Source of the DNA: Cyclobacteriaceae bacterium
GTDB lineage: Bacteria > Bacteroidota > Bacteroidia > Cytophagales > Cyclobacteriaceae
Assembly (NCBI GenBank): GCA_012033595.1
Contig: JAAUQL010000063.1
Span: forward strand, 1 to 35,980
Direction of reading: 5' to 3'
DNA length: 35,980 nucleotides
Shown here: piece by piece, positions 6,816-35,911 of the stretch
How positions within the stretch are numbered: position 1 is the first letter of the stretch
Layout: each line of letters starts with the position of its first letter
Notes under the pieces: model-generated
The model's input: only the letters and a program-made list of their open reading frames with translations
Told to the model about the DNA's origin: nothing
Database searches by the model: none
Program-made: the position numbers and the translations under genes

Positions 6816-7824
6816 TAATTCTGTCTGTCTATCAGGTTCAATATCAATGATTTCAACGGCGATTTTTTTGCTTCATCTACCGGCAGTGCTTCGAGCAGGG
6901 CTATTCCCCGGTCAAAGTATTCGTTCATTTTTTGCTCGCTTAGTCTTTTTATGCCCAAGGTAGCATATATTGTTTTTACGGCCTTTATTTTTTCATTGGC
7001 ATCAAACACTTTTTGGTTTAGCCAGTGTACAAGTTGCTCTTTTTCCTTTCCGATGGCCAGGTCCAGAGCCTTGATAAGCAAATATGTTTTTTTGTTGGAT
7101 ATAATATCTCCACCCAGTTGTTTGCCAAAGCTGGTATTTTCGGCATATACATCCAGCAGATCGTCCTTGAGCTGAAAACCTAGCCCGATGTTGATGCCTA
7201 TTTGGTAAAGTTGCTGGCAAATCGAGGCTTCTGCTCCGCCAATGATGGCTCCCAGCTCCATCGCGCAGCCGAGCAGCACCGCAGTTTTTAGCCTGATCAT
7301 TTCCAGGTATTCCGATTCGCTCACGTCAAGTGTCGATTCATAATTCATATCGAATTGCTGACCCTCGCATACTTCGGCGCACATGTGCTGAATCTCGAGA
7401 GGAGATGCTTCAATTGGGGGTGATCGCTTTTCAAAAACAAATCATACGCGCGAACCAGCATTACATCGCCGGAAAGTATGGCAATATTGGCATTCCATTT
7501 TTCATGAACTGTTTGCTTTCCCCGACGGATTGGAGCATTGTCCATGATATCATCGTGTAGCAACGTGAAATTGTGGAACACTTCAATGCCCAGGGCAGGG
7601 AAAATGGCTTTTTCTACTTTTTCATCAAAAATGGCACAGGTCATCAGGGTGAGTGCCGGCCTCAGGCGCTTGCCCCCAAGGCTCAGAATATACCTGATCG
7701 GTTCGTACAGCTCGACCGGTTCGTTACCAAAGTCCAGCGTGGACAGGTGTGTCTCAATTAGTTTTAAGTACCGCTCCAAAATTATAATGCTATGGTGGTG
7801 TGCAATTTTATTTATATCCGGCAA
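6815..7824 (-). CDS. Polyprenyl (all-trans) diphosphate synthase, frameshifted in this sequence
   Basis: An isoprenyl diphosphate synthase extending allylic diphosphates with IPP, for quinone side chains or related lipids. The first part (7824 to about 7383) carries LSLGGKRLRP, the first Asp-rich motif DDIMD and the following RRGK. The second part (about 7383-6815) carries EVCEGQQFDM, the second Asp-rich motif DDLLD in GFQLKDDLLD, and the C-terminal region. The two are in different frames and join at about 7375-7383 (GCGCC on the minus strand), where one extra base gives FSTCAxEVCEGQQ, as in homologues. Repaired length is about 336 residues. No ATG begins the first frame: TTG at 7824 directly follows a stop, so the start is uncertain. 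Product chain length is not determined. Confidence 0.86.
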
Positions 7825-8745: not shown

Positions 8746-9473
8746 TTAATAAATTTTTGGTATTTCTATAATTAAAAGGGTTGAATCAGTTACGATCTCA
8801 ATGGGCAATTTTTTTATGCCTTCCAGTCCGACTGCATCACGCTCGTCCAGCGTAGTGCCATTTATTTCTGCCATTCCTTTAATCAAAAAGGCATAGATCA
8901 GATTTTCGCCGCCGCTGGCAGACCGGTAAAATGTGCTGGTGCCGGCGGCAAGATGACCCAATGACAAGGTAGCGTCCTGGTTGATCCACAAGGCATTTTC
9001 ATCTGCCGGCGATACCACCGTCACCAATTCGTTATTTTTCAATTGTTCTGAAAAATCCATTTGCTGATACCGCGGCGCAATGTTTTTTTCTTTGGGCAAA
9101 ATCCATATTTGCAAAAATTGACCGCTTCCAATTGGGAATAATTGTATTCAGAATGCTGTATGCCGGTGCCGGCAGACATTATTTGCACTTCGCCGGTTTT
9201 GATTTGCTGCTCCTGCCCGGTGCTGTCTTTGTGCGCCAGCGAACCAGAAATGGGGATGGAAATGATTTCCATATTGTCGTGCGGATGCTTGCCAAAACCC
9301 ATTCCGGGTTGTACGATGTCGTCATTGAGCACACGAAGGGCGCCAAAATTTATCCTATCCGGATTGAAATAGCTGCCAAAGCTAAAAGTATGCCTTGAAA
9401 CAAGCCACCCGTGATCTGCCACACCTCGCGAGGAGGCTTTGTGAAAAATGCTTTGTTTGGTTTTTGTTTGCAT
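8746..9473 (-). CDS. Pirin family protein, frameshifted in this sequence
   Basis: A bicupin pirin of the YhhW/quercetinase-like group, an Fe(II) cytoplasmic protein. The N-terminal part has RGVADHGWLVSRHTFSFGSY, FGALRVLNDD, and metal ligands in GKHPHDNMEI and GTGIQHSEYN. The C-terminal part continues QIWILPKEKNIAPRYQQ and the second cupin. The two halves are in different frames: the first reads VNFCKYGF and the second LQIWIL. Restoring one base in the run of five A at 9113-9117 (plus) gives EAVNFLQIWILPKEKN, exactly the family sequence. Repaired length from ATG 9473 is 242 residues. A GTG at 9494 overlapping the MarR stop (GTGA) is an alternative start. Substrate unknown. Confidence 0.88.
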
Positions 9474-9490
9474 AGTTTGGTTTGTTTTGT

Positions 9491-9940
9491 TCACCCGCGC
9501 AATTTGTCGAGAAGCCCATTCAACGTTTGCGCTTCTTCTACGCTTATTTTTTTCATTGTTCTGTTCATCTCGTCCAGCTTGGGTGCAATAAGCTCTAACA
9601 TGCTAAGACCCTTTTCTGTGATGGTAATGTCCACCTGCCTTCTATTATTAGGGCAAATTCGCCTTTGGGACAACCCTGATTTTTCCAGCTTGTCTATCAG
9701 TCGAGATGCATTGGAAGATTTGTCTAACATTCGGTCTCTAATGAGCAAAAGGTTGCAGGCATTCGGATATTGGCCTCTCAATATCCTCAGCACATTGTAT
9801 TGCTGTGGCGATATATCATAGGATTTAAATATCCGCGATTGCGATGCTTCAAGCCATTTGCTGGTAAATAACAGGTTGATGGCCAGCTTATGGTATTCGC
9901 TCAAAAACGACTTCTGTTTGATTTCTTCTTCTATGTTCAT
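9491..9940 (-). CDS. MarR-family transcriptional regulator
   Basis: A 149-residue winged-helix dimer regulator (start at ATG 9940, MNIEEEIKQKSFLS). The open frame extends upstream to 9994, but that extension covers the operator and is rejected. The core has ISPQQYNVLRILRGQ, then the recognition region NLLLIRDRMLDKSSNASRLIDKLEKSGL, and the wing RRICPNNRRQVDITITEKG. MarR proteins of this type respond to phenolic or redox ligands; no ligand can be named here. It heads the MarR-pirin-YceI unit, overlapping a possible GTG start of pirin. The palindrome at 9949-9962 suggests autoregulation. Confidence 0.9.
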   Translation of the reverse strand: MNIEEEIKQKSFLSEYHKLAINLLFTSKWLEASQSRIFKSYDISPQQYNVLRILRGQYPNACNLLLIRDRMLDKSSNASRLIDKLEKSGLSQRRICPNNRRQVDITITEKGLSMLELIAPKLDEMNRTMKKISVEEAQTLNGLLDKLRG

Positions 9941-14401: not shown

Positions 14402-14971
14402 ATGGCAAATGTTGATCTTTCTACCTACAACAACAGTTGGTATCATCCGGGTGCCGGCATACTTAAACGCAGCCTGTGGCATATGGTCAACCATTTGATT
14501 TTTACCCATGGTTTGCTGCCCTTTTCCTCTTTGAAAATAAGAATATTGCGTTGGTTTGGCGCCAAAGTAGGATTAGGTGTCAACATTAAGCCATCGGTCA
14601 ACATCAAGTACCCGTGGCTGCTGGAGCTCGGCGATCATGTATGGATAGGCGAAAAGGTATGGATAGACAACCTCGCGATGGTGACAATAGGAAGTCATGT
14701 GTGCTTATCGCAAGGAGCGATGCTGCTGACGGGCAACCACGATTTTTCCAGGTCAACCTTTGATCTTAAAGTCGGAGCGATATCGTTGGAAAATGGCGCA
14801 TGGATTGGCGCCAAAGCCATTGTATGTCCGGGCGTGTTGTGTGGCGCTCACAGCATATTGTCGGTGGCATCTGTGGCAACAAAAAACCTGGAAGCACATG
14901 GCATATACCGGGGCAATCCGGCGGTAAAGGTAAAAACCAGGACGGTAGATATTCCAACGCCCATTCCATAA
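14402..14971 (+). CDS. WcaF-like sugar O-acetyltransferase (hexapeptide repeat)
   Basis: A 189-residue left-handed beta-helix acyltransferase like WcaF of colanic acid synthesis. N-terminal NNSWYHPGAGILKRSLWHMV is typical of the WcaF group. The hexapeptide repeats run from IKPSVNIKYPW through ALGDHVWIG-type turns to VCPGVLCGAHSILSVASV, and the conserved LLTGNHDF contains the probable catalytic His. It would acetylate a sugar of a surface polysaccharide using acetyl-CoA at the cytoplasmic face. First gene of the glycan cluster. The following 92 bases include a TATTTTTG -7-like element (15050-15057) just before the GT2 start. Confidence 0.88.
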   Translation: MANVDLSTYNNSWYHPGAGILKRSLWHMVNHLIFTHGLLPFSSLKIRILRWFGAKVGLGVNIKPSVNIKYPWLLELGDHVWIGEKVWIDNLAMVTIGSHVCLSQGAMLLTGNHDFSRSTFDLKVGAISLENGAWIGAKAIVCPGVLCGAHSILSVASVATKNLEAHGIYRGNPAVKVKTRTVDIPTPIP

Positions 14972-15063
14972 TTATTTGCCTGGTGCTACCCTGAATGGTA
15001 ATTTGGGGTTCCGGCCAATCAGCTATTTTCAAATTCCAACTTACTGAATTATTTTTGGCATTT

Positions 15064-15816
15064 ATGAAAGTTTCTATCATTACCGTCTGTTACAATAGCG
15101 CAGCGCACCTCGAAGATGCAATCCGGTCGGTGGCAAATCAGGAATATGGCGATATTGAACATATTGTAATAGACGGAGACAGCAAAGACGGCACACAGAA
15201 CCTGTTGGAAAAACATAAGCAAAGCCTGGCAAAGTGGGTAAGTGAGCCAGATGAAGGCATATACGACGCTATGAACAAAGGCATAAGCATGTCGGATGGC
15301 CAAATTATAGGCATGCTCAACTCCGACGATTTTTATTACGACAACAGGGTGATTTCCAGGGTAGTTCAGGCCTTTGCCGATCCTGCGGTCGATGCGGTTT
15401 TTGGGGATTTGATTTTTGTAGATCCCAAAAACCTGGAGCGGACGGTTCGCACCTATTCTTCCAGAAAATGGCACCCTGGCAAATTTGCCAGCGGCTATAT
15501 GCCAGCCCACCCCACCTTTTTTGTCCGAAGAGAATTTTATGAAAAATACGGTCTTTTTGAGACTGATTATAAAATAGCCGCCGACTACGAAATGCTCATC
15601 AGGTTGCTGTACGTCCACGGTTTAAAATATGCCTATTTGCCCATCAAGATGGTGAAAATGCGCAAAGGGGGGGTTAGCTCCAATGGTTTCAGGAGCAATA
15701 TATTGCTCAATGCAGAAATCGTAAGGGCTTGCCGAACACACGGCATCAAAACCAATGCCTTCAAAATTTATCCAAAGTATTTTAATAAAGTCTTCGAATT
15801 GTTCATTCACAAATGA
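15064..15816 (+). CDS. Family 2 glycosyltransferase
   Basis: A 250-residue GT-A fold glycosyltransferase. MKVSIITVCYNSAAHLEDAI opens the nucleotide-binding fold; EHIVIDGDSKDGT, GIYDAMNKGI and the metal-binding GMLNSDDFYYD are the typical WcaE/WcaA-like motifs. The later AADYEMLIRL supplies the catalytic-base region. It should add one sugar to a lipid-linked glycan at the cytoplasmic face; donor and acceptor are unknown. ATG 15064 is chosen because the fold begins there; the open frame upstream to 14995 is not protein-like. Its stop overlaps the start of the next gene (ATGA), indicating an operon. Confidence 0.91.
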   Translation: MKVSIITVCYNSAAHLEDAIRSVANQEYGDIEHIVIDGDSKDGTQNLLEKHKQSLAKWVSEPDEGIYDAMNKGISMSDGQIIGMLNSDDFYYDNRVISRVVQAFADPAVDAVFGDLIFVDPKNLERTVRTYSSRKWHPGKFASGYMPAHPTFFVRREFYEKYGLFETDYKIAADYEMLIRLLYVHGLKYAYLPIKMVKMRKGGVSSNGFRSNILLNAEIVRACRTHGIKTNAFKIYPKYFNKVFELFIHK

Positions 15817-16761
15817 AGCATATACTCATTACCGGCATTAGTGGCTTTGTAGGCAGCAGCCTGGTCAGACATTTCCAGGAGCTTGATGGTGTCATTGTAC
15901 ATGGCTATTCGCGCGCGCCCGGGCTACCAGAAGTTTGCTCGCAGACTTTCCCGTAGATATCGTCGATGACCTCTCTGCCGCCACCCTCGACCAGCTACAA
16001 ATCGATATTGTCATTCACCTGGCGGGTATCGCACATGACCTTGCAGGCCACTATCAGGAGCGCGACTATGAATTGGCCAACTACGAAATGACCAAAATGA
16101 TTTATGAGGAGTTTGCACCCTCCAAGGCAACGGCATTCGTTTTTGTTAGTTCCGTTAAGGCGCTGATAGACAAGGCCGACGAGATCGTAACAGAGGAAAC
16201 TACAGCCAGGCCTGCCTCTCCCTATGGCAAGTCGAAACGAAAGGCAGAGGAATATATCATGGCTCAAAATACCGGCGGAAAGCAAAATTATATCTTGCGT
16301 CCATGCATGATTCACGGGCCGGGCAACAAAGGCAACCTCAATCTGCTGTATAAATTTATTCACTCCGGCGTGCCCTATCCTTGGGGTCTTTTCGCAATAA
16401 GCGATCTTTTCTTTCCATTGCTAATTTTTGCTTTGTAGTGCAGGCTATTGTCACCGAGCGTCTGCCTGCCAGCGACTATTTGCTCTGCGACGACGAGGCC
16501 ATCGCCACCACAGAAATGGTGCAACTGATGGGAAAAGTGCTAAACAAAAAAGTGGCAATATGGAATATTCCAAGGCCGGCCATGAAGCTGTTGGCTGCTA
16601 TGGGTTCCGTCGTGCATGCGCCTTTCAATAGCCTGACCCTCGAAAAACTCACTGAGAATATGATTGTTTCCAATGCGAAGCTAAAACGTGCGCTGGGCGA
16701 GCCCTTGCCGGTTTCGGCGATGGAGGGACTAGGCCACACCATAAAATCATTTAATGGATAA
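15813..16761 (+). CDS. WbpV-like NAD-dependent epimerase/4-reductase, frameshifted twice in this sequence
   Basis: A short-chain dehydrogenase of the extended type, about 316 residues after repair. The first frame (15813-15957) has the nucleotide-binding ITGISGFVGSSLVRHF. The second (about 15935-16385) has VIHLAGIAHDLAG, the SSVKAL serine and the catalytic YGKSK. The third (about 16385-16761) has GSFRNKRSFLSIANF and the C-terminus. Each join needs one added base: somewhere in the CG-rich 15905-15935 stretch, and in CCTTGGGG near 16380-16386. The NKRSF block and C-terminus resemble WbpV, which makes N-acetylquinovosamine or N-acetylfucosamine donors from a 4-keto-6-deoxy intermediate; that assignment is from memory. 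Overlaps both neighbours by a few bases. Confidence 0.83.
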
Positions 16762-17719
16762 TTTGATTTACCTGCTTTTTGTTCTGCTGCTATTTGCCGG
16801 ATATTTGGCATATTTTGTCATCGCGCGACGCTTTCAGATCGTTGATATGCCCAACCACCGCACCATGCACGATGGAGCCACCATCAGAGGTGGAGGTGTG
16901 GTCTTGTTCCTGGGCATGGCCGTGGGCGCTATGGGCATGGACGACATCGGCCTTTGGTTTTTAGGCGGACTTATTATTATCGCGCTCACCGGATTTTTAG
17001 ATGATATGTACAACCTGTCCGGCAAGATACGTTTGCCACTGCAGGTGCTTTCTGTGTTATGCATTTTTTTAGAATTGGAGCTGTTTGGTATTGGGTTTTT
17101 CATACTTTTCTTCGCTATCGTTGTGGCTGCCGGCACCCTCAATGCCTACAACTTTATGGATGGCATCAATGGAATGACGGGCGGGTACAGTCTGGTGGTG
17201 GTTGGCACATTGCTCTATGTCAACGGTTTTATGTATGAGTTTATAGACAATTCCTTTCTCGTATTTTTTACTTTGGCGTTGCTTGTTTTCAGTTTCTATA
17301 ATTTCCGAAAAAAAGCCGTTTGTTTCGCAGGAGACGTGGGCAGCCTGTCCATAGCTTTTATTGTAGTGTATCTGCTCATCAGACTCATTGCCGACACGCA
17401 TCAGTTTGTGTACATTTTGCTACTTACCGTGTATGGCATCGATACCATATTTACCATAGTGCAGCGAATAGCCAGAAAAGAAAATATTTTCGACGCCCAC
17501 AGGCTTCACCTGTTTCAGGTGATCGTGAGCAAGACCAAAATGCCACATTTACGCATGTCGCTGATCTATATGGTCATTCAGCTCCTGGTGAATGTGATAT
17601 TGCTGAGTATGCTGCCGCTGCCACAACATTTGCAGGTGCTGGGCTCTATCGGTTTACTCCTGGTTCTTTCGGTCATTTACATTGTAATAAAGAAAAAAAT
17701 GATGCCGACTTCAAACTGA
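16754..17719 (+). CDS. WbpL/WecA-like undecaprenyl-phosphate phosphosugar transferase (GT4-type, polytopic)
   Basis: A 321-residue polytopic membrane protein of the MraY/WecA family, which moves a HexNAc-1-phosphate from UDP to undecaprenyl phosphate. Visible motifs: VDMPNHRTMHDGATIRGGG at the first cytoplasmic loop, LTGFLDDMYNLSGKIRLP with the Asp pair, LNAYNFMDGINGMTGG with the nucleophilic-loop Asp, FAGDVGS, and the His-containing DAHRLHLFQ in the last loop. Its position directly behind and overlapping (8 bases) a WbpV-like reductase matches the WbpV-WbpL pairing of Pseudomonas O-antigen loci, suggesting QuiNAc or FucNAc as the first sugar. That donor is inferred. Confidence 0.9.
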   Translation: MDNLIYLLFVLLLFAGYLAYFVIARRFQIVDMPNHRTMHDGATIRGGGVVLFLGMAVGAMGMDDIGLWFLGGLIIIALTGFLDDMYNLSGKIRLPLQVLSVLCIFLELELFGIGFFILFFAIVVAAGTLNAYNFMDGINGMTGGYSLVVVGTLLYVNGFMYEFIDNSFLVFFTLALLVFSFYNFRKKAVCFAGDVGSLSIAFIVVYLLIRLIADTHQFVYILLLTVYGIDTIFTIVQRIARKENIFDAHRLHLFQVIVSKTKMPHLRMSLIYMVIQLLVNVILLSMLPLPQHLQVLGSIGLLLVLSVIYIVIKKKMMPTSN

Positions 17720-18321
17720 TGTACTGTTTGTATTGGAAGACATATCTTGACAAACTGGTCGCTGCGTTGCTTATCATCGCATTGTTGCCGATGTTTGCCC
17801 TGGTGTTTCTGGTACTATACATCAGCGAGGGTCGCCCGGTATTGTTTTCGCAAATGAGATCGGGACAGGGTATGGTACCCTTTAAAATGTACAAATTTCG
17901 GAGCCTGCCAGTAGGCAACGAGGGCGGTTTGGACATGGCAGATCGCCAACCTAACGCTGTGGGTCGGGCGATTAGAGCATTGGGCATCGATGAGCTCCCG
18001 CAGTTGGTTCATATCATCACAGGTCACATGTCTTTTGTGGGTCCACGTCCATTGCCTGTGGCTTATGCACCGCTATATGGAGCGCCTCATCTGGCAAGAT
18101 TTGCAGTGAAACCAGGCATTACAGGTTGGGCACAGGTAAATGGCAGAAACAATATGTCCTGGGGTAAGCGATTCGAACTGGATAGTTGGTACGTAGATCA
18201 CATCAGTGTGCTGCTCGACCTTAAAATACTGGTCATGACCATCAGGCTACTCGTTGCAAATGTTTTTGAGCATAAGCCTGCGCAAGACATGCGGGTATTT
18301 GATGGTTTTAATCTTGATTGA
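17719..18321 (+). CDS. pglC: PglC-like monotopic phosphoglycosyltransferase (initiating sugar transferase)
   Basis: A 200-residue bacterial sugar transferase with one N-terminal membrane helix (about 12-34). Motifs in order: FKMYKFRS, the catalytic Asp91-Glu92 dyad in LGIDELPQL, MSFVGPRPLP, and KPGITGWAQVNGRN. It forms a covalent phospho-sugar intermediate and passes it to undecaprenyl phosphate. The compact size and the following PglD-, PglE- and PglF-like genes point to UDP-diacetylbacillosamine as donor. The ATG at 17719 shares a base with the upstream stop (TGATG). The same frame is open upstream to 17320, but that part lies inside the GT4 gene and is not protein-like. Confidence 0.9.
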   Translation: MYCLYWKTYLDKLVAALLIIALLPMFALVFLVLYISEGRPVLFSQMRSGQGMVPFKMYKFRSLPVGNEGGLDMADRQPNAVGRAIRALGIDELPQLVHIITGHMSFVGPRPLPVAYAPLYGAPHLARFAVKPGITGWAQVNGRNNMSWGKRFELDSWYVDHISVLLDLKILVMTIRLLVANVFEHKPAQDMRVFDGFNLD

Positions 18322-18322
18322 C

Positions 18323-18910
18323 ATGATACTTTATGGTGCAGGCGGACATGCCAAAAATATATTTGATTGTCTGGTGTCGGTGGGTTTGTCGCTCAGCGCT
18401 ATATTCGATGACGATCGGGCGCGCCATACTTTTTTTGAGACTGACATTTGGCATGAGTACTCGGCTGAACGCTTGCCGGAGGAAAAGCTCATCGTCAGCA
18501 TTGGTGACAACAAGGCACGATTTGTATTGGCTAATAAGATTAAACATCCCTTTGGCACTGTAGTTCATTCCTCCGTCTGGATGGCCACCAATGTGCAGAT
18601 TGGCCAGGGCACGGTAGTAATGGCCGGAGCTGTGCTGCAAACAGAGGCTGGTATCGGACAACATGCCATTATTAATACCTCTGCCATAGTAGAGCACGAA
18701 TGTACTATTGGTAATTTTGCACATATTGGTCCGGGGGCGGTGGTTTGTGGGGCTGCGCAGGTTGGCGAAGGCGCATTGATAGGTGCCAACGCCACCATCT
18801 TACCGGGCATTTCTGTAGGCAAATGGGCCATTGTAGGAGCAGGGGCGGTCGTAACCCGCAATATAGATGACGGCGTAAAAGTGGCAGGAAATCCGGCACG
18901 GATAGTTTAG
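18323..18910 (+). CDS. pglD: PglD/NeuD-like sugar N-acetyltransferase
   Basis: A 195-residue two-domain acetyltransferase. MILYGAGGHAKNIFDC is the N-terminal Rossmann-like UDP-sugar-binding part. From about residue 80 a left-handed beta helix of hexapeptide repeats follows. His125 in AIVEHECTIGNF falls at the position of the catalytic His125 of Campylobacter PglD. The end VAGNPARIV is typical. It should acetylate the 4-amino group of the UDP sugar made by the next gene. It begins one base after the PglC-like stop and ends two bases before the aminotransferase. A NeuD-type O-acetyltransferase is the alternative, but neighbours favour PglD. Confidence 0.88.
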   Translation: MILYGAGGHAKNIFDCLVSVGLSLSAIFDDDRARHTFFETDIWHEYSAERLPEEKLIVSIGDNKARFVLANKIKHPFGTVVHSSVWMATNVQIGQGTVVMAGAVLQTEAGIGQHAIINTSAIVEHECTIGNFAHIGPGAVVCGAAQVGEGALIGANATILPGISVGKWAIVGAGAVVTRNIDDGVKVAGNPARIV

Positions 18911-18912
18911 CA

Positions 18913-20034
18913 ATGAAAGAGAAAAACAAATACAGAATATTTTTATCCCCACCCCACCAAAGCGGGCAAGAACTCGAATACTTCAATCGGGTGCTTCAGG
19001 AAAACTGGCTGGCGCCGGGCGGTATGCAGGTGGAACAATTGGAAAGCCAGCTCAAAAACATAGCAAACAGGAAATATTGCGTAGCGCTCAATTCTGGTAC
19101 AGCCGCGCTACATCTGGCGCTCAAAGCCCTGAAGGTGGGGCCTGGTGATTTCGTGTTTTGTCAGTCCTTTAGCTTTGTGGCCACTGCCAATCCGATAGCC
19201 TATGTGGGCGCCCATCCCATTTTTATCGATAGCGAAGCTACCACATGGAACATGGATCCTGCACTATTGGAGGAGGCCATAGTCGATCTTCATCATAAAA
19301 ATATAAGACCCAAGGCGATAATATACGCTCATATCTATGGCATGCCCGCTCTGGTGAAAGAGCTCTTGCGAATATCGCAGACTTATCAGATACCGATAAT
19401 CGAAGATGCCGCCGAAGCACTCGGGTCGAGCATAGACGGTAAGTCGGTAGGTCAGTTTGGTGATATCAGCATATTGTCTTTCAATGGCAACAAGGTGGTG
19501 ACTACAGCCGGAGGTGGCGCCTTACTCACCGATGATGAAGAAATAGCACACAAAGCGCTGATGCTGGCCACGCAGGCGCGCAGCCTCAACGAGGGCTATC
19601 AGCATACCGAAGTAGGCTATAATTACCGTATGAGCAACCTCAGTGCAGCGCTCGGACAGGCACAGCTTGGCATGTTAAAAAAGTGGGTAAATCAAAAAAG
19701 AAACATTTTCCAGTCATACCAGCGCATCAATGCATCTGATCTGCAAGTGGAATGGATCGACGAAGTAAACGGTATTTATGCCAACAGATGGTTGTCGGTT
19801 TTCCTTTTCAGGAATCATGCAACAATGCTCGAAGCAATGGAGACACTATTGAAAAATGGCATCGAAAGCAGGAGGTTTTGGATGCCGCTGGATAAAATGG
19901 GCATTTACCGGATTCAAAAAGCATACCTTACCGGAATGGCATCGCGACTGTTTGAGCTGGGCATTTGTCTTCCATCGGGCGTAGGACTGACTGTAGATGA
20001 GCAGCAAGAGATTATACATCTACTTAGCCATTAG
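18913..20034 (+). CDS. pglE: PglE-like UDP-sugar 4-aminotransferase (DegT/DnrJ/EryC1/StrS family)
   Basis: A 373-residue PLP enzyme. FLSPPHQSGQELEY, the substrate-loop NSGTAALHLALKAL (60-73), the PLP-ring partner in IIEDAAEALGS (Asp165) and the Schiff-base Lys194 in SFNGNKVVTTAGGG are all present. It should transfer an amino group from glutamate to C4 of UDP-4-keto-6-deoxy-GlcNAc. The product suits the acetyltransferase two bases upstream. Full length and intact. About 146 bases separate it from the PglF-like gene, with a possible promoter there. WbpE- or ArnB-like chemistry on another 4-keto sugar is the main alternative. Confidence 0.9.
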   Translation: MKEKNKYRIFLSPPHQSGQELEYFNRVLQENWLAPGGMQVEQLESQLKNIANRKYCVALNSGTAALHLALKALKVGPGDFVFCQSFSFVATANPIAYVGAHPIFIDSEATTWNMDPALLEEAIVDLHHKNIRPKAIIYAHIYGMPALVKELLRISQTYQIPIIEDAAEALGSSIDGKSVGQFGDISILSFNGNKVVTTAGGGALLTDDEEIAHKALMLATQARSLNEGYQHTEVGYNYRMSNLSAALGQAQLGMLKKWVNQKRNIFQSYQRINASDLQVEWIDEVNGIYANRWLSVFLFRNHATMLEAMETLLKNGIESRRFWMPLDKMGIYRIQKAYLTGMASRLFELGICLPSGVGLTVDEQQEIIHLLSH

Positions 20035-20142
20035 ATTCTAATTATTCTTTTATATTTGGGGGTCATTCAATGCTTTTTTTAAATTCGACCAACACACGAA
20101 ATTTGATGAAGGTGATAATTCAGTATTTTTCCAACTTTCGGT

Positions 20143-20171
20143 TTGATTATTTTTATTTATAATTGACTTTG
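20143..20171 (+). promoter_or_regulatory. Possible promoter of the PglF-like gene
   Basis: TTG at 20143-20145 and TGACTTTG at 20164-20171 (one mismatch to TAnnTTTG) are 18 bases apart, within Bacteroidota spacing. The ATG follows 9 bases later, which would make a very short leader. Weak evidence. Confidence 0.3.
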
Positions 20172-20180
20172 TTTCTCTGA

Positions 20181-22089
20181 ATGGATAAACTACTATTAAA
20201 GATCAAAATCCTTCCTCGCTGGATTATCATACTGATAGACCTGTCATTGCTGTTTTTTTCATCTCTGATGGCCTATTTGCTTCGTTTCAATTTCGATTTC
20301 AGCAGGCTGGGAGGCATCGATGTTAATACCGGCATTTTATTATTTACATTTTTCAGCCTGATTTCTACCCTTGCCACACGCAGTTATGCAGGTATAGTCA
20401 GATACACCGGCATGCAGGATGCTGCCCGCATTTTGCTTACCATCTTTATTGGTTCCGTGCTTACCTTTTTGGCCAGTTATGGTCATTTTAAAATGTACAA
20501 TGAGTACCTGATCCCGGTCTCAGTCATCATCATTGCTTTTCTCAATTCCGTGCTTTCGCTCATCCTTTACCGGCTGTTTGTGAAGCAGTTGTTTTCTTCT
20601 TTTGGAAAAAAGAAAAAAAACAGGAGCACATCATGATATTCGGCACCAACAAATCTGCGCAGATGGCCCGCCAAATTCTCGAAGACAACACCGAAAGAAG
20701 ATACAAAGTACTGGGATATCTGGACGATGATAAAAAGCATGTAGGCAAAGTGGTGAATGGAGTGAAGATATTTGATGCCCGCGAAGATCTGGAATACATT
20801 CTGGTGAATAAAAAGATTACCGAACTGATCATTTCTGAAAGAAACATCCCGATTGAGCGCAAAAATGAGCTGGTGGATTTTTGTCTTGAAAAAAATATAA
20901 AAGTGAGAATGGTACCTCCTGTGGATCAGTGGGTAAAAGGAGAGCTGAGCCTAAACCAGATCAAGAACATCAATATCGAAGAGCTTTTGGGGCGCGAGTC
21001 GATCAAGCTCGACAATTATAACGTGACGCAAGAGCTAAAGGGGCGCAAGGTAATGGTGACCGGTGCAGCGGGCTCTATAGGCAGCGAAATAGTACGACAG
21101 GCGCTTTATTACAATCCTGATTTGATTATTATGGTTGATCAGGCCGAATCGGACCTGTTCGAAATAGAAAACGAATTGCTACTGAAAAAGGGCACCCTCA
21201 AAATATACACCTGCATAGCCGATGTTACCAACAAAGAGCGGATGGAAGGCCTCTTCAAGGAGTTTGAGCCGCAGATCATCTTCCATGCCGCAGCGTACAA
21301 GCATGTGCCTATGATGGAGAGAAACCCGGTGGAAGCAGTATTGTGCAACATCAACGGCACCAAAACCATGGCAGACCTGGCCGTAAAGTACAAGTCAGAA
21401 AAGTTTGTGATGATCTCCACAGACAAGGCGGTGAACCCTTCTAATGTAATGGGAGCCTCTAAGCGTATTGCGGAGATGTATGTGCAGTCGCTCAATAACT
21501 ACCTCAAAGACAAAAACCCCGATCATACCAAATTCATTACCACCAGGTTTGGCAATGTGCTGGGCTCCAATGGGTCGGTTATCCCGGTATTCAAGAAACA
21601 AATAGACCGGGGGGGGCCCATTACCGTGACGCACCCGGAGATCACCAGGTTTTTTATGACCATACCTGAAGCTTGCCAACTGGTGCTGGAAGCAGGAGCC
21701 ATGGGCGAAGGGGGTGAGATATTCGTTTCGATATGGGCAAGTCGGTACGCATCATCGATCTGGCCAAGAAAATGGTAAGACTCTCAGGTCTGGAACTTGG
21801 CCGGGATATAGAAATCGTCTTCACAGGGTTACGCAGCGGAGAGAAATTGTATGAAGAAGTGCTGAGCAGCCATGAAGGCACCCTGCCCACCTACCATCAC
21901 AAAATATTGATTGCCAGCACCAGGGAAGAACGCTACGAAACCGTGAAGCGGGATATTCAGCTGCTTATCAACGCTGCTCAGGACTATGACGAGCTCAAGT
22001 TGGTAGGCATCATGAAGTTTATCGTACCGGAATTTAAGAGCAACTCTTCCAAATTTGAAGTTTTGGATAGACAAAAAGGAGTGACCTGA
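20181..22089 (+). CDS. pglF: PglF/WbpM/CapD-like UDP-GlcNAc 4,6-dehydratase, frameshifted twice in this sequence
   Basis: A membrane-anchored nucleotide-sugar dehydratase, about 636 residues after repair, the usual size. Part one (20181 to about 20620) has four hydrophobic helices. Part two (about 20620-21728) has a first Rossmann region (MIFGTNKSAQMARQ), then the catalytic domain with VTGAAGSIGSEIVRQ, HAAAYKHVPMMERNP, and STDKAVNPSNVMGASKR. In that last block Met replaces the usual Tyr, as in the Ser-Met-Lys triad of WbpM/PglF. Part three (about 21728-22089) is the C-terminus. Frames rejoin with one A added to the run of eight (20613-20620) and one T added at 21726-21728, giving GEIFVFDMGKSV. 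It dehydrates UDP-GlcNAc to UDP-4-keto-6-deoxy-GlcNAc, feeding PglE and possibly the WbpV-like gene. Confidence 0.89.
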
Positions 22090-22132
22090 TTATTTCTGGC
22101 GTTTATAGAAGGGGGGAAGTTAAAGGGAATGT

Positions 22133-23215
22133 ATGGAAATCGTCTTATATAAATCTATCACTACCGCATTGGCCATTTCAGTGGTTTTTACCCCGGTTTT
22201 AGTGAAGATATCGAGAAGAAAAGGGTATGTGGCTTCCGTAAACCACCGCAGCTCACACGCACTCAGCGTACCCAATACCGGAGGGATCATATTATGCTTT
22301 GCTGTGCTCACACCCCTGATTTTATTTTCGGATTATCCGCAGCAAGCAGATTTTAGTGTGCTTATAACCGCCTTTGCCGTTTTGCTCATAACCGGCATTA
22401 TCGATGATTTCAATCCCATACCGGTCACCTTCAAATTCCTTGGACAATTTATTCCTGCTATCGTCATCGTTACGTCAATAGACCAGCAAGAACTCGTGAT
22501 CCCGTTTATCAAAGAGCTGGTCGAGCTGCCATTCATATTCAACTATCTGTTTTGGATTGTATTTGTGGTCATGAGCATCAACGCCTTCAACCTCATAGAT
22601 GGCATCGATGGATTGGCTCTGGGCTTGGGTATGGTCAGCGGCATGTTTTATTCTATTTATTTCTTCATCATAGCCGAATACAATCTGCTCATATTTTCCA
22701 TTTCGCTGGTATTCGGACTGCTGGGCTTGTTTTTTTACAATATTACCGACAAGTTCAAGATATTTATTGGCGATACCGGTTCGTTGCTCATCGGAGGCTT
22801 GTTGGTATTCTTTGCGTTGAAATACATTGATTTCTCAGGCGCTGATACCAAGAATCAATCCTTCTTTATGGTACTCGCAAGCATCTTTATTCCACTGGCA
22901 GATATGCTGCGGATTGCCCTGGTGCGTATCGCTCATGGACAGTCACCCTTCAAAGCAGACAGGCAACACATTCACCACATTATGCTCGATCTCCTGGGCA
23001 AAAAGCACCTTGCGGCCACCTCCGTGTTGCTCTTGGTTCAGATCATGGTTTTATACCTGTTTCATCAAATTTCCCTCCTCGATCGTCCTCCTTACTTTTA
23101 CATCATTATCACTTCTTTCCTTGTATATTTTATGGCTGTACACGTTTTGAAGTATTACCGCGACAAACAGTTGAGCAAGGATAAATGCCAAAGCAACCGG
23201 TATGCAAATTTTTAA
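22133..23215 (+). CDS. Second MraY/WecA-like undecaprenyl-phosphate GlcNAc-1-phosphate transferase
   Basis: A 360-residue polytopic membrane protein, full length. Motifs: NHRSSHALSVPNTGGI, LITGIIDDFNPIPVTFKFLGQ (Asp pair), NAFNLIDGIDGLALGLG, FIGDTGSLLIGG, and the loop HGQSPFKADRQHIHHIMLDL with the HIHH histidines characteristic of WecA/TagO. It should attach GlcNAc-1-P (or similar) to undecaprenyl phosphate. It differs from the GT4 at 16754 by having the full HIHH loop, so it is the better WecA candidate and may start a different polymer. It lies 43 bases after the PglF-like gene, probably co-transcribed. Confidence 0.9.
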   Translation: MEIVLYKSITTALAISVVFTPVLVKISRRKGYVASVNHRSSHALSVPNTGGIILCFAVLTPLILFSDYPQQADFSVLITAFAVLLITGIIDDFNPIPVTFKFLGQFIPAIVIVTSIDQQELVIPFIKELVELPFIFNYLFWIVFVVMSINAFNLIDGIDGLALGLGMVSGMFYSIYFFIIAEYNLLIFSISLVFGLLGLFFYNITDKFKIFIGDTGSLLIGGLLVFFALKYIDFSGADTKNQSFFMVLASIFIPLADMLRIALVRIAHGQSPFKADRQHIHHIMLDLLGKKHLAATSVLLLVQIMVLYLFHQISLLDRPPYFYIIITSFLVYFMAVHVLKYYRDKQLSKDKCQSNRYANF

Positions 23216-23533: not shown

Positions 23534-25824
23534 ATGCAATCAGTTCTATATTTTTCCGCAGTTATGGGCGTAGTCGCCCTTTTATTTGTTGTATGGAAGT
23601 CCTCCTGGGTATCGAAGCAGGAATCGGGAAATAAAAAAATGACCGGTATTGCGCACCACATAGCCACAGGCGCTATGGCCTTTCTGAAGGCAGAGTATAA
23701 GGTGCTTATCATTTTTGTTATTCTGGTAGGCATCATTTTGTTGTTGAAAGGTTCGTTTGAACCAGGTTCTCATCCCTTGCTAGCCCTGTCCTTTATCGTC
23801 GGGGCATTTTGTTCTGCCCTTGCGGGATATTTGGGCATGCGAGTGGCCACCAAAGCCAATGTACGTACTACCCAGGCAGCGCGAAGTTCGCTGGGCAGGG
23901 CACTTGAAGTCGCTTTTGCCGGAGGCTCAGTGATGGGGCTGGGTGTGGTAGAGCTTGGCGTGCTCGGGTTGAGTTTATTGTTTTTGCTTTATACTTACCT
24001 ATTCGGGATAGATTTCGACAATATCGGGAAGGTGCTCAATGTATTGGCCGGTTTTTCACTTGGTGCTTCTTCTATAGCCCTGTTTGCCCGGGTTGGTGGA
24101 GGTATTTATACCAAAGCTGCCGATGTAGGTGCCGATTTGGTGGGCAAAGTAGAGGCGGGTATTCCAGAAGACCACCCGCTGAACCCGGCCACCATAGCAG
24201 ACAATGTGGGTGACAATGTAGGCGATGTGGCAGGCATGGGTGCCGACCTGTTCGAGTCGTATGTTGGCTCAATTATCGGCGCTATGGTGTTAGGTGCCTC
24301 GTTTGTGGCCTTACCTGAGTTTGGCAATTCATTCAACGGACTAGGGGCGGTGATCCTGCCCTTGGCATTGGCTGCATCGGGCATCATCATGTCCATTATC
24401 GGCACTTTTTTCGTGAAGGTAAAAGATGGCGGCAATCCGCAAAGAGCGCTCAATATAGGCGAGTTTGGCTCTTCTCTTCTGATGATCATCGTTTCAGTTT
24501 TTATTATCCGTGGTATCATGCCAGAGCGTTGGGTGGCAGCTAATGGCGAAACATATACTGCTCTGGGTATCTTTTATGCCACACTTGCCGGGCTGCTGGC
24601 GGGGTTGGGCATTGGCAAAATTACGGAATTCCATACGGGTACCGGAAATTCTCCGGTGCGCCTTATCGCCAGGCAATCGCTTACCGGCAGTGCTACCAAC
24701 ATCATTGCCGGGGTGGGTGTAGGCATGTTTTCAACGGCCATCCCCATCATACTGATCAGCGCGGCTATTCTCATATCTTACCATTTTGCCGGGCTATACG
24801 GCATAGCCATCGCGGCCGTGGGTATGTTGGCCAATACAGGCATTCAGCTCGCCGTAGATGCCTATGGCCCCATATCTGACAATGCCGGTGGCATCGCCGA
24901 AATGAGTGACCTGCCCAGGGAAGTGCGCATGCGTACCGACAAGCTCGACGCTGTGGGCAATACCACGGCTGCTATAGGCAAGGGCTTTGCGGTAGGATCG
25001 GCAGCATTGACAGCCTTGGCCCTCTTCGCAGCGTATATGCAGGAGGCGCATCTTACCAGTATCGATATATCAAAACCTGTAGTAATGGTTGGCTTATTGG
25101 TCGGCGCTATGTTGCCCTTTGTTTTTTCTGCGTTGGCGATGAGTGCCGTGGGCAGGGCTGCCATGGCCATGATAGAAGAGGTTAGAAGGCAGTTTAGCGA
25201 TATTCCGGCATTGAAAAATGCGCTGGAAATTATGCGGAAATATGATTCGAAAATAGAAAAGGCCACAGAAGCTGAAATGGAGATTTTTCAACTGGCAGAT
25301 GATGCCGCCGAATATGATAAATGCGTGGAAATTTCTACAAAAGCCTCTATCAAAGCCATGGTATTACCGGGGCTTTTGGCTATAGGCTCACCGGTGGTCA
25401 TAGGTTTTGGCGGAGGAGCAGAGATGCTCGGAGGTTTACTGGCCGGGGTCACTGCTTCTGGCGTATTGATGGCTATTTTTCAGTCTAATGCAGGCGGAGC
25501 ATGGGACAATGCAAAAAAATGTTTGAAGAAGGGATCGAAATAGATGGAACCATGCACCATAAAGGATCGTACGGTCATAAGGCCGCAGTAGTGGGCGATA
25601 CGGTGGGTGATCCGTTCAAAGACACCTCCGGGCCTTCGCTCAATATTCTGCTCAAACTCATGTCGGTAGTGGCATTGGTCATAGCACCGTCTATTGCATT
25701 GGAGCAACTGCCAGTGGAAGGGTTAATTCCCGAAAAGGAAATACAAGCCCCGGCAAATTTAGAATCATCGGAAAATGAGCTTGGAGAAGTTTATGAAGGC
25801 GTATTCACGCAAGTGAAGTTTTAG
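23534..25824 (+). CDS. hppA: K+-dependent membrane pyrophosphatase, probably Na+-pumping; frameshifted in this sequence
   Basis: A membrane-integral pyrophosphatase, about 763 residues with some 16 helices, coupling PPi hydrolysis to cation export. Active-site motifs include [20 protein letters not shown] (188-207) and [12 protein letters not shown] (223-234). [10 protein letters not shown] (475-484) has Ala and Gly where K+-independent enzymes have Lys and Thr, so K+ dependence is predicted. Glu241 in ADLFESYVG lies at the site used by Na+-PPases, one turn before the SYAE site of plant H+-PPases. The first frame stops at 25543; adding one A to the run of seven (25513-25519) continues as [20 protein letters not shown] and [17 protein letters not shown], essential family motifs, ending at 25824. 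A dual Na+,H+ pump remains possible. Confidence 0.92.
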
Positions 25825-32579: not shown

Positions 32580-33928
32580 CTAAAACTGGTTGAGCTCTTT
32601 GATGGATCGGTATTCAAATTCAAAATCGATTTCGAAGGCATCAACAAATTTCTGTTTCATGGCTTTCTTGAGCTGGTCAACATCATTGGCAAAAAACAAA
32701 AATGCTCCACCCCCGCCGGCTCCGCATAGCTTACCTCCCAATGCGCCATTGGCTTTGGCAAATGCATACATCGCATCGAGTTTTTCTGTGGTAGACGACG
32801 GAGCCAATAGCTTTTGAGCTTCCCAGTTTCGATCTATTATTTGCGCGCAGGCATCAAAATCTTTGCGTTCCAACGCCCGCGCAAACTCCCGGCCGCAAAT
32901 CACCAATTCAGCGATGGCTCGTTGCCCATTTTCTGTATTATGATATTTGTACACCTCCTCCACGGCCAATTGTGCATTGCGCGATTCACTGGTATGCAAT
33001 AGCAGAAGCTTTTGCCTGAGTGTATCGAGTGTATCGCGATCTATATCCAAATCGAGTGGTTTGGCATAATCATCGCCAAATTCAAAACAATGAAAGCCGC
33101 CATACACTATGGCATACTGATCTTGCCGGCCAATAAACCACTGCAACTCTTCATTTTCGAGATTAAAGAGGTCTTCACCGATGTTGGATAGGGATTTCGG
33201 CTCTGCGTTGTATGTCTTAGAATTGAGCATTTCCAGTAGTTTGGCGGCGGTACTGGTGCTCAATCCGCTACCTCGCGGATAGCCGGAAAAGTTGAATTTT
33301 CCGGCTTTGTATTCGACCAACGGCCTGATGGCCGCATTGGAAACGAAGCCTTTTTTACCTTTCATAATGTGGGGCACATCGGTCCATCCACCTGCAAAAT
33401 CGATGCGGAGGGGTGCTTTAAGGCTATAGTTGATTTTGTTGATGATGTTAGATGTACTGGTGGGCATCAGTTCTTGTGGCACTTCACGGGCAACAAATTG
33501 TATGGAAATGCCCAGGCTGTCGCATAGTAGTTTTTGGGCTCAATGGATGAATCATCGTCATTCAGAATAAAAAAGTCTGGTCTGAGTGCAGTGAGTACTT
33601 CTTTAAAATCGATTTTACCCTCACCGATTTCATTGTCGTTGAGCACGGCATAGTCCACATCTTGCATGGCAGCCACCAGATACACCCGGTTATTTTCCGG
33701 GTTTACCGGACGTCCCGGGCCTTTGAGCTTGCGCAGCGTTTCGTCCCTGCCCACACCTACCACCAGTATATCGCCATGGGCTTTGCACTGATTAAAAAAC
33801 ACCGCATGACCCGATTGTAATATGTCGTAGCACCCTGTGGCAAAAACGATTTTTTTATCGCGACTACTGTTTCTGAAGGCTTTAAGCTGATCTTTTGCCA
33901 ATACTTTGGCTCTGATATTTTCAAACAT
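32580..33928 (-). CDS. Bifunctional nucleotidyltransferase/GHMP kinase fusion, frameshifted in this sequence
   Basis: Residues 1-150 form an RfaE2/TagD-like nucleotidyltransferase: FATGCYDILQSGHAVFFNQC, VGVGRDETLRKLKG, and NPENNRVYLVAAMQDVDY. The HxGH motif reads QSGH, so the first His is Gln. The frame as given ends at 33467 after unnatural residues (NYYATAWAF). Adding one base to the T5 run 33531-33535 gives KKLLCDSLGISIQFVAREVP, then PTSTSNIINKI, the usual end of the domain. It runs without a stop into a GHMP kinase: APLRIDFAGGWTDVP, ATP loop YPRGSGLSTSTA, and GGKLCGAGGGGAFLFF. Total 449 residues. The kinase resembles heptose-7-phosphate kinase HddA but has a short N-terminal insert. It may make an activated sugar, possibly a heptose; the substrate is a guess. 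Without the repair it would be two overlapping genes with GTG 33482 as the second start. Confidence 0.8.
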
Positions 33929-33951
33929 ACTTTTGGAATAAAAAGAAAAAA

Positions 33952-34809
33952 TTATATGCGATCCAGTACTTTTAAGATGATGGAGTCAATGATTTTATTT
34001 GGGTCTTTGATAAAGGTGCCCCGTGCTCTGTTGCCCAGCACGGCATTGACGCTGATGGCCTCATGGCCAAGCATGCTGGCAAAGGCATACAATAGAGATG
34101 TTTCCATTTCGAAATTGGTCAGCCAAAATCCTTCATGGTTAAATCGAATGATTTGGTCAAGCAATTTTGGGTTACGCACCGGAATCCGTACTTCACGGCC
34201 TTGAGGGGCATAAAATCCCGGTGAGGTCAAGGTATTGCCAGGTGTGAATCCTTCGCCAATTTTTGCTTTGAGCAAGTCAGATCCTTTGGCAATATAGGGG
34301 GTAAAGGGCATGTCGAGTTCCCGCTGGAGTTTTTGCACTATTGCCAGTTCGTCGGCAGTCTGTTCAAAATGGTAATAAAGCATCAAATTGTCCAGCCCTA
34401 TGCCATAATCGGAGATGATTTCCGATCCGACTTTGATATCTTCCTGAATGGCTCCCGAAGTGCCTATTCTGATGACATTAAAGCTTTTCTTTTCTTCTTT
34501 GGGCACTCTTTTTTTCAAATCAATATTAAACAAGGCATCGAGTTCTATCATGGCAATTTCAATATTGTCCACTCCCATGCCCGTGCTCATCACGGTGATG
34601 AGCTTGCCTTTGTACATTCCTGTATGGGTAATAAACTCGCGTTTGTTCATTTCAAACTCGATCTGGTCAAAATGCCGGCTGATGCGATATACCCTGCCCG
34701 GATCTCCTACCACAATGATGTTTTCTGACACATTGTGGGGTTTCAGGTTGAGGTGATATACGCTGCCATCGTTGTTGAGTACCAGGTCGGCGTCAGAATA
34801 TTTTAGCAT
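33952..34809 (-). CDS. Nucleoside phosphorylase (uridine phosphorylase-like, PNP/UDP family)
   Basis: A 285-residue enzyme of the trimeric/hexameric nucleoside phosphorylase family, cleaving a nucleoside with phosphate for salvage. Motifs: IVVGDPGRVYRISRHF (phosphate-binding Gly and Arg near the start), STGMGVDNIEIAMIEL, VIRIGTSGAI, and NFEMETSLLYAFASMLGH, the Met-Glu ribose-contact block. ATG 34809 (MLKYSDADLVLN) is preferred to the TTG at 34890, which adds an unlikely 27 residues. The base specificity is uncertain, with uridine more likely than purine by overall pattern. It lies between TrhO and the fusion gene on one strand, 23 bases from the latter. Confidence 0.88.
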   Translation of the reverse strand: MLKYSDADLVLNNDGSVYHLNLKPHNVSENIIVVGDPGRVYRISRHFDQIEFEMNKREFITHTGMYKGKLITVMSTGMGVDNIEIAMIELDALFNIDLKKRVPKEEKKSFNVIRIGTSGAIQEDIKVGSEIISDYGIGLDNLMLYYHFEQTADELAIVQKLQRELDMPFTPYIAKGSDLLKAKIGEGFTPGNTLTSPGFYAPQGREVRIPVRNPKLLDQIIRFNHEGFWLTNFEMETSLLYAFASMLGHEAISVNAVLGNRARGTFIKDPNKIIDSIILKVLDRI

Positions 34810-34902
34810 AGTAGTAAAAGTGTCTACTTTTCTTGTGTAAAAGATATTGTTCGATTCAAAAACTAAATTTGAATAAAATAGCGCGCACAATCAATATAAA
34901 TA

Positions 34903-35844
34903 TCATTTCCTTTTTATTCCGCTGTAGGGATTGTAGCCGTTAAGATTTTTTGGGTAATAACCCCTGCCATCATAAGGGCGTTTGCGCGGATGTGATTTGC
35001 ATTTTTCTGAACAGGCACCTTCCATGGCCTCTGCGCAGGTTTCGCAAATGGGCACATGTTTGTTGCACTCCGGGTTGGCACAATTGACCATGCGGTCGCT
35101 GTGGTCGCCACATATGTGGCACGAGCTCACTATAGTCGGATTTACCTTATTCACATCGGCCACTATGCGGTTGTCAAACACATAACATTTGCCTTCGAAG
35201 TCTTCACCACCCTCTTCGATACCGTATTTGATAATGCCCCCATGGAGTTGGTACACGTTGGCAAAGCCTTTTTCGAGCAGGTAGGCACTGGCCTTTTCGC
35301 ACTTAATCCCACCGGTGCAGTAGGTAATTACTTTTTTGTCTTTGTATTGCTCCAGCTCCGCTACCTTGTCGGGAAAGTCCCGAAAATTATCTATATCAAA
35401 TGAGATGGCATTTTTAAACCTGCCGACATTGTGTTCGTAATTCGACCGCACATCCACCACGATAACGTCCTCATCGTTTTTTACTTTTTTAAACTCATGC
35501 GGTTCGATGTATTTTCCGGTTTTTTTGTTGGGATCAATGTGGCGCAGGCCAGAATGGACGATTTCATCCTTCACCCTGATGTTCAATTTCTGAAACCCGT
35601 GAGTTGGTGATGTCTCCACTTTGAATTCGGTATGGGCAAACCTTTGATCTGCATGGAGATGCGACATATACTTTTCGCAATCGGTTTTTAATCCGGAAAT
35701 GGTGCCATTGATTCCCTCTTCGGCTATGATAATCCTGCCAAGCAGATTGTTTTCAATACAATATAAATGGTGTTGAACTCTGAAGGCCTCAGGGTCTACT
35801 ATTTTGGTGTAGCAATAATAAAGTAAGATCAAATATTCGTTCAT
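34903..35844 (-). CDS. trhO: TrhO/YceA-like tRNA uridine-34 hydroxylase (rhodanese domain)
   Basis: A 313-residue protein of the YceA family. TrhO makes 5-hydroxyuridine at the wobble position of tRNAs with O2. The N-terminal ferredoxin-like part has RIIIAEEGINGTISG and FQKLNIRVKDEIVHSGL. The rhodanese domain (about 120-220) has VVDVRSNYEHNVGRFKNA and the catalytic cysteine in ITYCTGGIKCEKASAYL. The C-terminus has cysteine pairs (CHICGDHSD, NCANPEC, CETC, CSEKC), probably a zinc module, then a basic tail. Start at ATG 35844; the TTG two codons upstream is less likely. First gene of the minus-strand run. Confidence 0.92.
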   Translation of the reverse strand: MNEYLILLYYCYTKIVDPEAFRVQHHLYCIENNLLGRIIIAEEGINGTISGLKTDCEKYMSHLHADQRFAHTEFKVETSPTHGFQKLNIRVKDEIVHSGLRHIDPNKKTGKYIEPHEFKKVKNDEDVIVVDVRSNYEHNVGRFKNAISFDIDNFRDFPDKVAELEQYKDKKVITYCTGGIKCEKASAYLLEKGFANVYQLHGGIIKYGIEEGGEDFEGKCYVFDNRIVADVNKVNPTIVSSCHICGDHSDRMVNCANPECNKHVPICETCAEAMEGACSEKCKSHPRKRPYDGRGYYPKNLNGYNPYSGIKRK

Positions 35845-35911
35845 GGTCAATACTATGAGTCACAGATATATTGGTTTTATGGATACATTTTTTTTGTAAT
35901 AAATGCCTGGC

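Follow-up and report, generated by a model that had tools for sequence, protein, structure and literature searches.

A nucleotidyltransferase and a compact GHMP kinase are joined in this order in a single protein encoded on the minus strand of the window, the 35,980-nucleotide stretch analysed here, which makes up the whole of contig C114 in a 5.75 Mb genome of 234 contigs. We see about an even chance that the protein is a bifunctional activator of L-fucose or a close relative of it, that is, a half-length analogue of FKP (L-fucokinase/GDP-fucose pyrophosphorylase) with an HxGH-fold nucleotidyltransferase. The sequences show the single chain present in eleven relatives, the kept pocket and catalytic residues, a missing kinase segment and the genomic context of sister clades. 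The C-terminal kinase would phosphorylate the anomeric hydroxyl of L-fucose or of a stereochemical relative (L-galactose, D-arabinose), and the N-terminal HxGH-fold domain would move a nucleotide from an NTP onto the sugar 1-phosphate, with an NDP-sugar and pyrophosphate as products; the NDP-sugar may then serve surface glycans. The whole enzyme would be FKP-like with an unrelated nucleotidyltransferase half. Both activities and the order of the two steps are predicted, as are the nucleotide and the sugar used in the clade of the window, and the conversion of a sugar to an NDP-sugar by such a chain, put forward in a preliminary description of this DNA, is kept as the likely role. GTP is favoured as the nucleotide on the single ground that some neighbours in a sister clade are predicted to make GDP-fucose; the relation to RfaE2 would favour ATP or CTP.

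The two halves lie in different frames in the window. The nucleotidyltransferase half is an ORF of 153 aa (33928..33467, minus strand) with a CTP_transf_like match of 46.1 bits, and its fold is RfaE2/HldE2-like; the kinase half is an ORF of 300 aa (33482..32580, minus strand) with a GHMP_kinases_C match of 42.3 bits. Profile A2 matched both in abutting frames, at 33928-33515 (profile 1-138) and 33539-32586 (profile 131-448), which places one frame break near 33515-33540. The in-frame match of the first half stops near 33515, and the kinase ORF, which starts with the last nucleotidyltransferase residues (TSTSNII), stays open, with homology, from about 33539 onwards. The break was missing from eleven intact relatives, each an uninterrupted 449-aa chain of nucleotidyltransferase and GHMP kinase (eight distinct aligned relatives together with L054, L055 and L056). 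These and the window copy form clade A, with 12 members, and the frame is split in the window copy only (1/12). The fusion is real, with the nucleotidyltransferase first, as the preliminary description had it.

Four other window genes were likewise found in two frames when the 30 ORFs besides the two of the fusion were scanned, namely a polyprenyl synthetase (6815-7824), a pirin (8746-9494), a CapD-like dehydratase (20633-22089) and an H+-pyrophosphatase (23534-25824). These suggest frequent sequence errors in this contig, and because at least four other genes are split, the break in the fusion is probably a sequence error, which is also its simplest cause. A decaying pseudogene would account for a break that eleven relatives lack, but it is improbable, since the rest of the kinase frame is open and 79-84% identical to five members of the genus, and four more split genes within the same 36 kb point to sequence errors.

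The same architecture was sought across the phylum, and profile searches revealed two further clades, B and C. Clade B consisted of L021, L022, L023, L057, L093 (a second copy in genome G232), L013 with L061 (G010) and L116; the G010 copy is cut by contig ends, and L116 comes from a viral-contig collection. Clade C is L031. The features of the GHMP superfamily (motif 1, the glycine-rich ATP loop and GAGGGG) were present in clade A and most of clade B. The Pfam model GHMP_kinases_C missed L057 and L031, which counts against a fucokinase assignment, and the kinase half of clade C was assigned by motifs only.

Motif 1 of the window kinase, RIDFAGGWTDVP (33372..33407, minus strand), contains the equivalents of FKP R592, D594, W599, D601 and P603, with Val in place of T602; residues were numbered by alignment to an FKP whose numbers fall on known residues. 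In the 449-aa chain, W599 and D601 correspond to W182 and D184. According to PMC11982464, D601, T602, Q761 and D762 of FKP contact the hydroxyls of the sugar, on which W599 stacks, and R592 is close to O1, while the W599A and D601A substitutions lower kcat/Km for fucose more than 3000-fold. The R592A and D594A variants have hardly any activity left, and T602A is much weaker (PMC6468028). R592, D594, W599, D601, P603, Q761 and D762 were all kept in the 20 matched compact kinases (12 of clade A, 7 of clade B and 1 of clade C), the last two appearing in the window as a Gln-Asp pair (33120..33125, minus strand; proposed general base, PMC11982464). A 21st compact kinase, L093, escaped the pattern; it retains the Trp and carries Cys at 594, and this Cys speaks against fucose. 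D594 and W599 occurred in none of 16 HddA and none of five HddA-like kinases, as in all 21 position 594 is occupied by Gly or Ser and position 599 by Gly. T602 gives way to Val in clades A and C and to Gln in clade B, and the full GGWXDTPP signature including T602 is absent from the compact kinases; this too weighs against the assignment. Except for T602, the fused kinases appear to have the fucokinase version of motif 1, despite overall clade A scores that favour HddA.

Those scores bear on the activation of heptose, in which an HddA-like kinase and an HldE2-like nucleotidyltransferase would produce an NDP-heptose and which had been the leading candidate. Over the whole sequence, the HddA and FKP models gave the clade A protein 98.1 and 69.0 bits, respectively, and a true FKP kinase 93.4 and 617.5 bits. 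As the HddA model gives a true FKP kinase 93.4 bits as well, the HddA score of clade A is weak evidence, and heptose was lowered from first choice since this score does not discriminate. The best models remain HddA, with 99 bits against a cut-off of 600, and RfaE domain II, with 85 bits against 181.5, and both scores fall far short. The kinase belongs to the same GHMP superfamily as HddA/WcbL, the heptose 7-phosphate kinases, and HddA is the best whole-sequence match of the clade A kinase. The two differ in that HddA has RxGLAGGGxDV and stands alone in the loci seen, whereas the fusion has RIDFAGGWxDVP and its kinase carries a nucleotidyltransferase; the fusion lacks the HddA motif R[LI]GLAGGG[TS]DV and stayed at 98.1-99 bits with NF049969 against the cut-off of 600. 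By eye, gmhA/hddC/gmhB-type neighbours occurred at none of 10 clade A loci, whereas two HddA loci do show them (L119, annotated, and L062, by eye). With motif 1 of the fucokinase kind and the neighbours of clades B and C indicating fucose, we give heptose a low probability; fucose had also been among the sugars named for assay, and the current evidence points there.

The compactness of the kinase, claimed from the window alone, could be confirmed in its relatives. The distance from motif 1 to the ATP loop amounts to 42 residues in all 12 clade A members, 39 in clade C (n=1) and 32 in 5/5 clade B members measured (a sixth was unmatched), against 96-97 in 15/15 HddA, 85-86 in three HddA-like kinases and 118 in FKP (n=1). 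Relative to HddA, about 54 residues are missing, more than the roughly 40 estimated earlier. The short connection (33291..33329, minus strand) stands where FKP and HddA have a long segment, which in FKP includes ATP-base residues 644, 645, 666 and 669. In a model of FKP with ATP described in PMC11982464, the base is held by D644, M645, P666, I669 and L722. Positions 644, 645, 666 and 669 fell in the gap in all 10 aligned compact kinases (5 of clade A and 5 of clade B, out of 21). FKP G717 is replaced by Ser or Ala and S720 by Thr, and G713, required for FKP activity, aligns with Arg in clade B. The gap and the Arg at G713 both count against a fucokinase. The sequences suggest that either other parts of the protein, possibly the nucleotidyltransferase half, bind the ATP base, or the donor is bound unlike in other GHMP kinases, and the loss of the segment raises the question of the minimum size of a GHMP kinase.

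From these changes it could be argued that the GHMP half no longer works as an ATP kinase and instead has a regulatory role, takes its phosphate from another donor or does no more than bind a sugar phosphate, with a nucleotidyltransferase left as the enzyme. We regard this as unlikely, because the general base, GAGGGG (32706..32723, minus strand) and, in clade A, most of the glycine-rich loop (YPRGSGLSTST in the window, 33249..33281, minus strand) are retained, and eight clade A chains have a mean column identity of 82%. Tentatively, the protein may be a minimal fucose enzyme that arose apart from FKP, in which the HxGH domain would make NDP-L-fucose, either GDP-linked or as a new nucleotide sugar. 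Its GHMP kinase would have the fucose pocket without the usual ATP-base pocket and would bind its phosphate donor in a new way (a base-blind NTP, polyphosphate, pyrophosphate, or a nucleotide held by the nucleotidyltransferase half).

An AlphaFold2 model of the intact relative L017 reached a pLDDT of 75.9 with seven alignment rows, compared with 53.1 for an earlier model with four rows. Residues 153-170, 186-188 and 206-222 are below 50, so the ATP site is not readable from the model. The best PDB matches included HldC for the nucleotidyltransferase (rmsd 2.7 Å for the better chains) and the WcbL heptokinase and FKP fucokinase for the kinase; HldC and WcbL would suit heptose. Matches of the kinase half were loose, with rmsd of 8.9-9.9 Å and TM-scores of about 0.4 by query length, which is a further point against fucokinase. 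Overall, the model appears to agree with both folds, loosely so for the kinase.

Gene neighbourhoods of clades B and C were compared at nine loci, with the G010 copy counted once, and six of them have a sugar mutarotase, FucP, GH95 or GDP-fucose-synthesis gene no more than two genes from the fusion. At L091, a GDP-fucose-synthase-like gene (492.2 bits, cut-off 500) precedes the fusion with GMD (575.1 bits) further upstream, and a PF05336 mutarotase (95.1 bits) follows it. A mutarotase also follows at L092 (89.7 bits), where the next gene is FucP (317.3 bits, cut-off 280.4), and at L093 (82.6 bits), where an epimerase-family gene lies before the fusion and a GH95 protein three genes upstream. 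GMD adjoins the fusion at L094 (568.1 bits, cut-off 415), with an epimerase-family gene beyond it (Pfam only), and at L116 GMD (497.6 bits) lies before and a GDP-fucose-synthase-like gene (471.2 bits, cut-off 500) after the fusion. At L098, a GH95 protein (491.3 bits) is encoded directly downstream; GH95 comprises fucosidases and L-galactosidases. The PF05336 mutarotase, found directly downstream in three clade B/C loci, bears the Pfam name L-rhamnose mutarotase, and some PF05336 proteins act on L-fucose. L093 is the weakest of the six, as its only close genes are the mutarotase, named for L-rhamnose, and the epimerase. Near the compact kinases of L095, L096/L097 and L115, no relevant fucose gene was recognised. 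Support for the sugar is strongest in clade B; in clades A and C the sugar is suggested by the pocket residues and a thinner context.

In clade A, no fucose gene was recognised by eye in flanks of approximately 3-10 kb a side at 10 loci, which counts against fucose. The fusion at L019 is part of a polysaccharide cluster, where it immediately follows an epimerase/dehydratase-family gene (GDP_Man_Dehyd, 212.7 bits); a GT11 gene (123.8 bits) is 15.6 kb away. The upstream neighbour in the window belongs to the nucleoside phosphorylase family (PNP_UDP_1, 33952..34890, minus strand), and the order TrhO-like gene, nucleoside phosphorylase and fusion (33467-35850) was seen in 4/4 contigs of the genus examined, that of the window among them. 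A different sugar could accordingly be imagined for the clade of the window, for example a pentose 1-phosphate tied to this phosphorylase, and at position 602 clade A is unlike both FKP and clade B, from the latter of which it also differs in the HxGH motif. It is a rather unlikely possibility, since the phosphorylase was missing at the 6 other clade A loci examined and the seven other active-site residues are identical to those of FKP. Elsewhere in the window, a surface-glycan cluster (14402-23215) encodes a hexapeptide-type protein, glycosyltransferases, Bac_transf, a PglD-like acetyltransferase, a DegT aminotransferase and the CapD-like dehydratase.

The occurrence of fucose genes was also assessed genome-wide. 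In the genome of the window, FucP and a mutarotase are encoded side by side, two genes pass the GMD cut-off, and GT11 is matched twice. Counted over cut-off, fucP was found in 11/12 genomes of clade A, 5/6 of clades B and C, and 9/16 in which no copy of the fusion was found; the corresponding counts were 11/12, 4/6 and 9/16 for rhaM, 4/12, 0/6 and 3/16 for GT11, and 12/12, 5/6 and 11/16 for GMD. Such genes are too common among non-carriers, and their co-occurrence was dropped as support and counts against the assignment.

Comparison with FKP (NF009948, PRK13412) revealed a shared order of nucleotidyltransferase then GHMP kinase in a single chain, seven kinase active-site residues in common, and, in the sister clades, L-fucose/GDP-fucose neighbours. 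However, the nucleotidyltransferase of the fusion is an HxGH-type domain of approximately 165 aa, whereas that of FKP is a Rossmann and beta-helix pyrophosphorylase, and the fusion measures approximately 380-450 aa against about 950 aa for FKP and has neither T602 nor the ATP-base segment. With NF009948, L005 scored 69.0 bits against a cut-off of 721, and only model positions 734-938 of 974 were matched. The nucleotidyltransferase half, T602 and the curated cut-off all place the fusion outside FKP as judged from sequence. None of the 16 carrier genomes tested reached the FKP cut-off; as FKP was over the cut-off in just 1 of 198 sampled genomes of the phylum, its absence from carriers was dropped as support. 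A search of the family of that single FKP genome found FKP in 1 of 21 genomes, the same genome again. A survey of FKP searched with FUK and GFPP models and limited its FKP tree to chains of 745-1745 aa (PMC12732313), and a fusion of about 449 aa is not expected in that tree on account of this range. If the fusion does activate fucose, free fucose would be activated by two or more bifunctional designs whose nucleotidyltransferase halves are unrelated, and the half-size enzyme would be a useful alternative route to fucosylated glycans.

Another large chain was noticed at L100 (around G000:C30:23133-24077), where a frame open for about 1,100 aa weakly resembles the FKP kinase (motif HSGWSD, read by eye), contains a UDPGP domain and adjoins an NTP_transferase ORF. 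Frames of 1,108-1,134 aa in G003, G004, G010 and G135 match the same part of the FKP model, and L100 is possibly another kinase/pyrophosphorylase fusion.

The nucleotidyltransferase half resembles the second domain of HldE (RfaE), in which an RfaE2-like nucleotidyltransferase is likewise joined to a sugar kinase. The kinase of HldE is of PfkB type. In HldE, the kinase comes first and the nucleotidyltransferase lies at model positions 322-472 of 475, whereas the fusion has the nucleotidyltransferase followed by GHMP_kinases_C, with no PfkB match by Pfam, and QSGH in clade A; kinase type and domain order place it outside HldE. In L005, TIGR02199 matched residues 21-167 of 449 (model 7-143 of 144; 87.3 bits, below the cut-off of 181.5) and Pfam residues 30-163. 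As the match reaches about residue 167, TSTSNII, first taken for a linker, is the last motif of the nucleotidyltransferase, and the first kinase strand follows directly. The C-terminal STT motif is the second motif of HxGH nucleotidyltransferases. The Gln of QSGH (33806..33817, minus strand; Q38 of the 449-aa chain), which the preliminary description had singled out, proved to be conserved when checked, with Gln at the first HxGH position in 12/12 clade A members, His in 8/8 of clades B and C, and His in 15/15 RfaE2/HldE nucleotidyltransferases from the same family of genomes. The second His was kept in all 35 nucleotidyltransferases compared, and STT/STS is retained in the fusion. CoaD has TxGH in place of HxGH. 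The Gln of clade A counts against the fucose assignment.

In the tree of nucleotidyltransferases, the 15 RfaE2/HldE sequences fell on one side of a branch with 100/100 support and no fused sequence among them, and whether the fused sequences form one clade depends on the root. The kinase tree separated clades A and B from clade C, FKP and HddA by a weak branch (88/72) with long-branch warnings; it was built without L008, L009, L011, L027, L036, L046 and the clade B members L093 and L116, which the motif pattern missed. FKP branches apart from the compact kinases, which counts against fucose. A single origin of the fusion is possible.

The kinase was matched in 6/7 genomes searched in the genus of the window (its own included), the seventh being 85% complete. 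Full-length copies beyond the genus were found in G018, G505 and G545 (one genus), in G585 and in the MAG contigs L018 and L019; L016 and L017 were taken, from their lengths, as the same contigs as L003 and L004 and not counted again. Among 196 genomes of the family, clade A occurred in 8 (the split window copy counted) and clade B in 2, and in a phylum sample of 395 genomes at E ≤1e-25, clade B occurred in 3 and clade C in 1. When viral contigs were scanned with clade A, no relative could be confirmed, and no record in a phage collection covered 80% of the query, the best 10 of 34 covering 32-45%. Plasmid records gave one weak kinase match, nucleotidyltransferase matches only with a clade B query, and FKP and other kinases with an FKP query. 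No description of an HxGH-type nucleotidyltransferase fused to a GHMP kinase was found in the literature searched, mostly outside subscription journals.

Homologues always encoded as separate genes would have told against the fusion; all eleven intact clade A relatives found are single chains. One lone related kinase without a nucleotidyltransferase was found (L115:4992-5723, 243 aa) on a contig of the viral collection, surrounded by small genes resembling methyl- and glycosyltransferases by eye. In clade B, L057:1492-2571 (G544) has a stop directly after GAGGGG, past which the profile match goes on in-frame. The second, divergent fusion of G232 (L093:8858-9994) has HNGH and Cys at the D594 position, and genes nearby encode the GH95 protein, a regulator judged by eye to be of LacI type, and a sodium/solute symporter.
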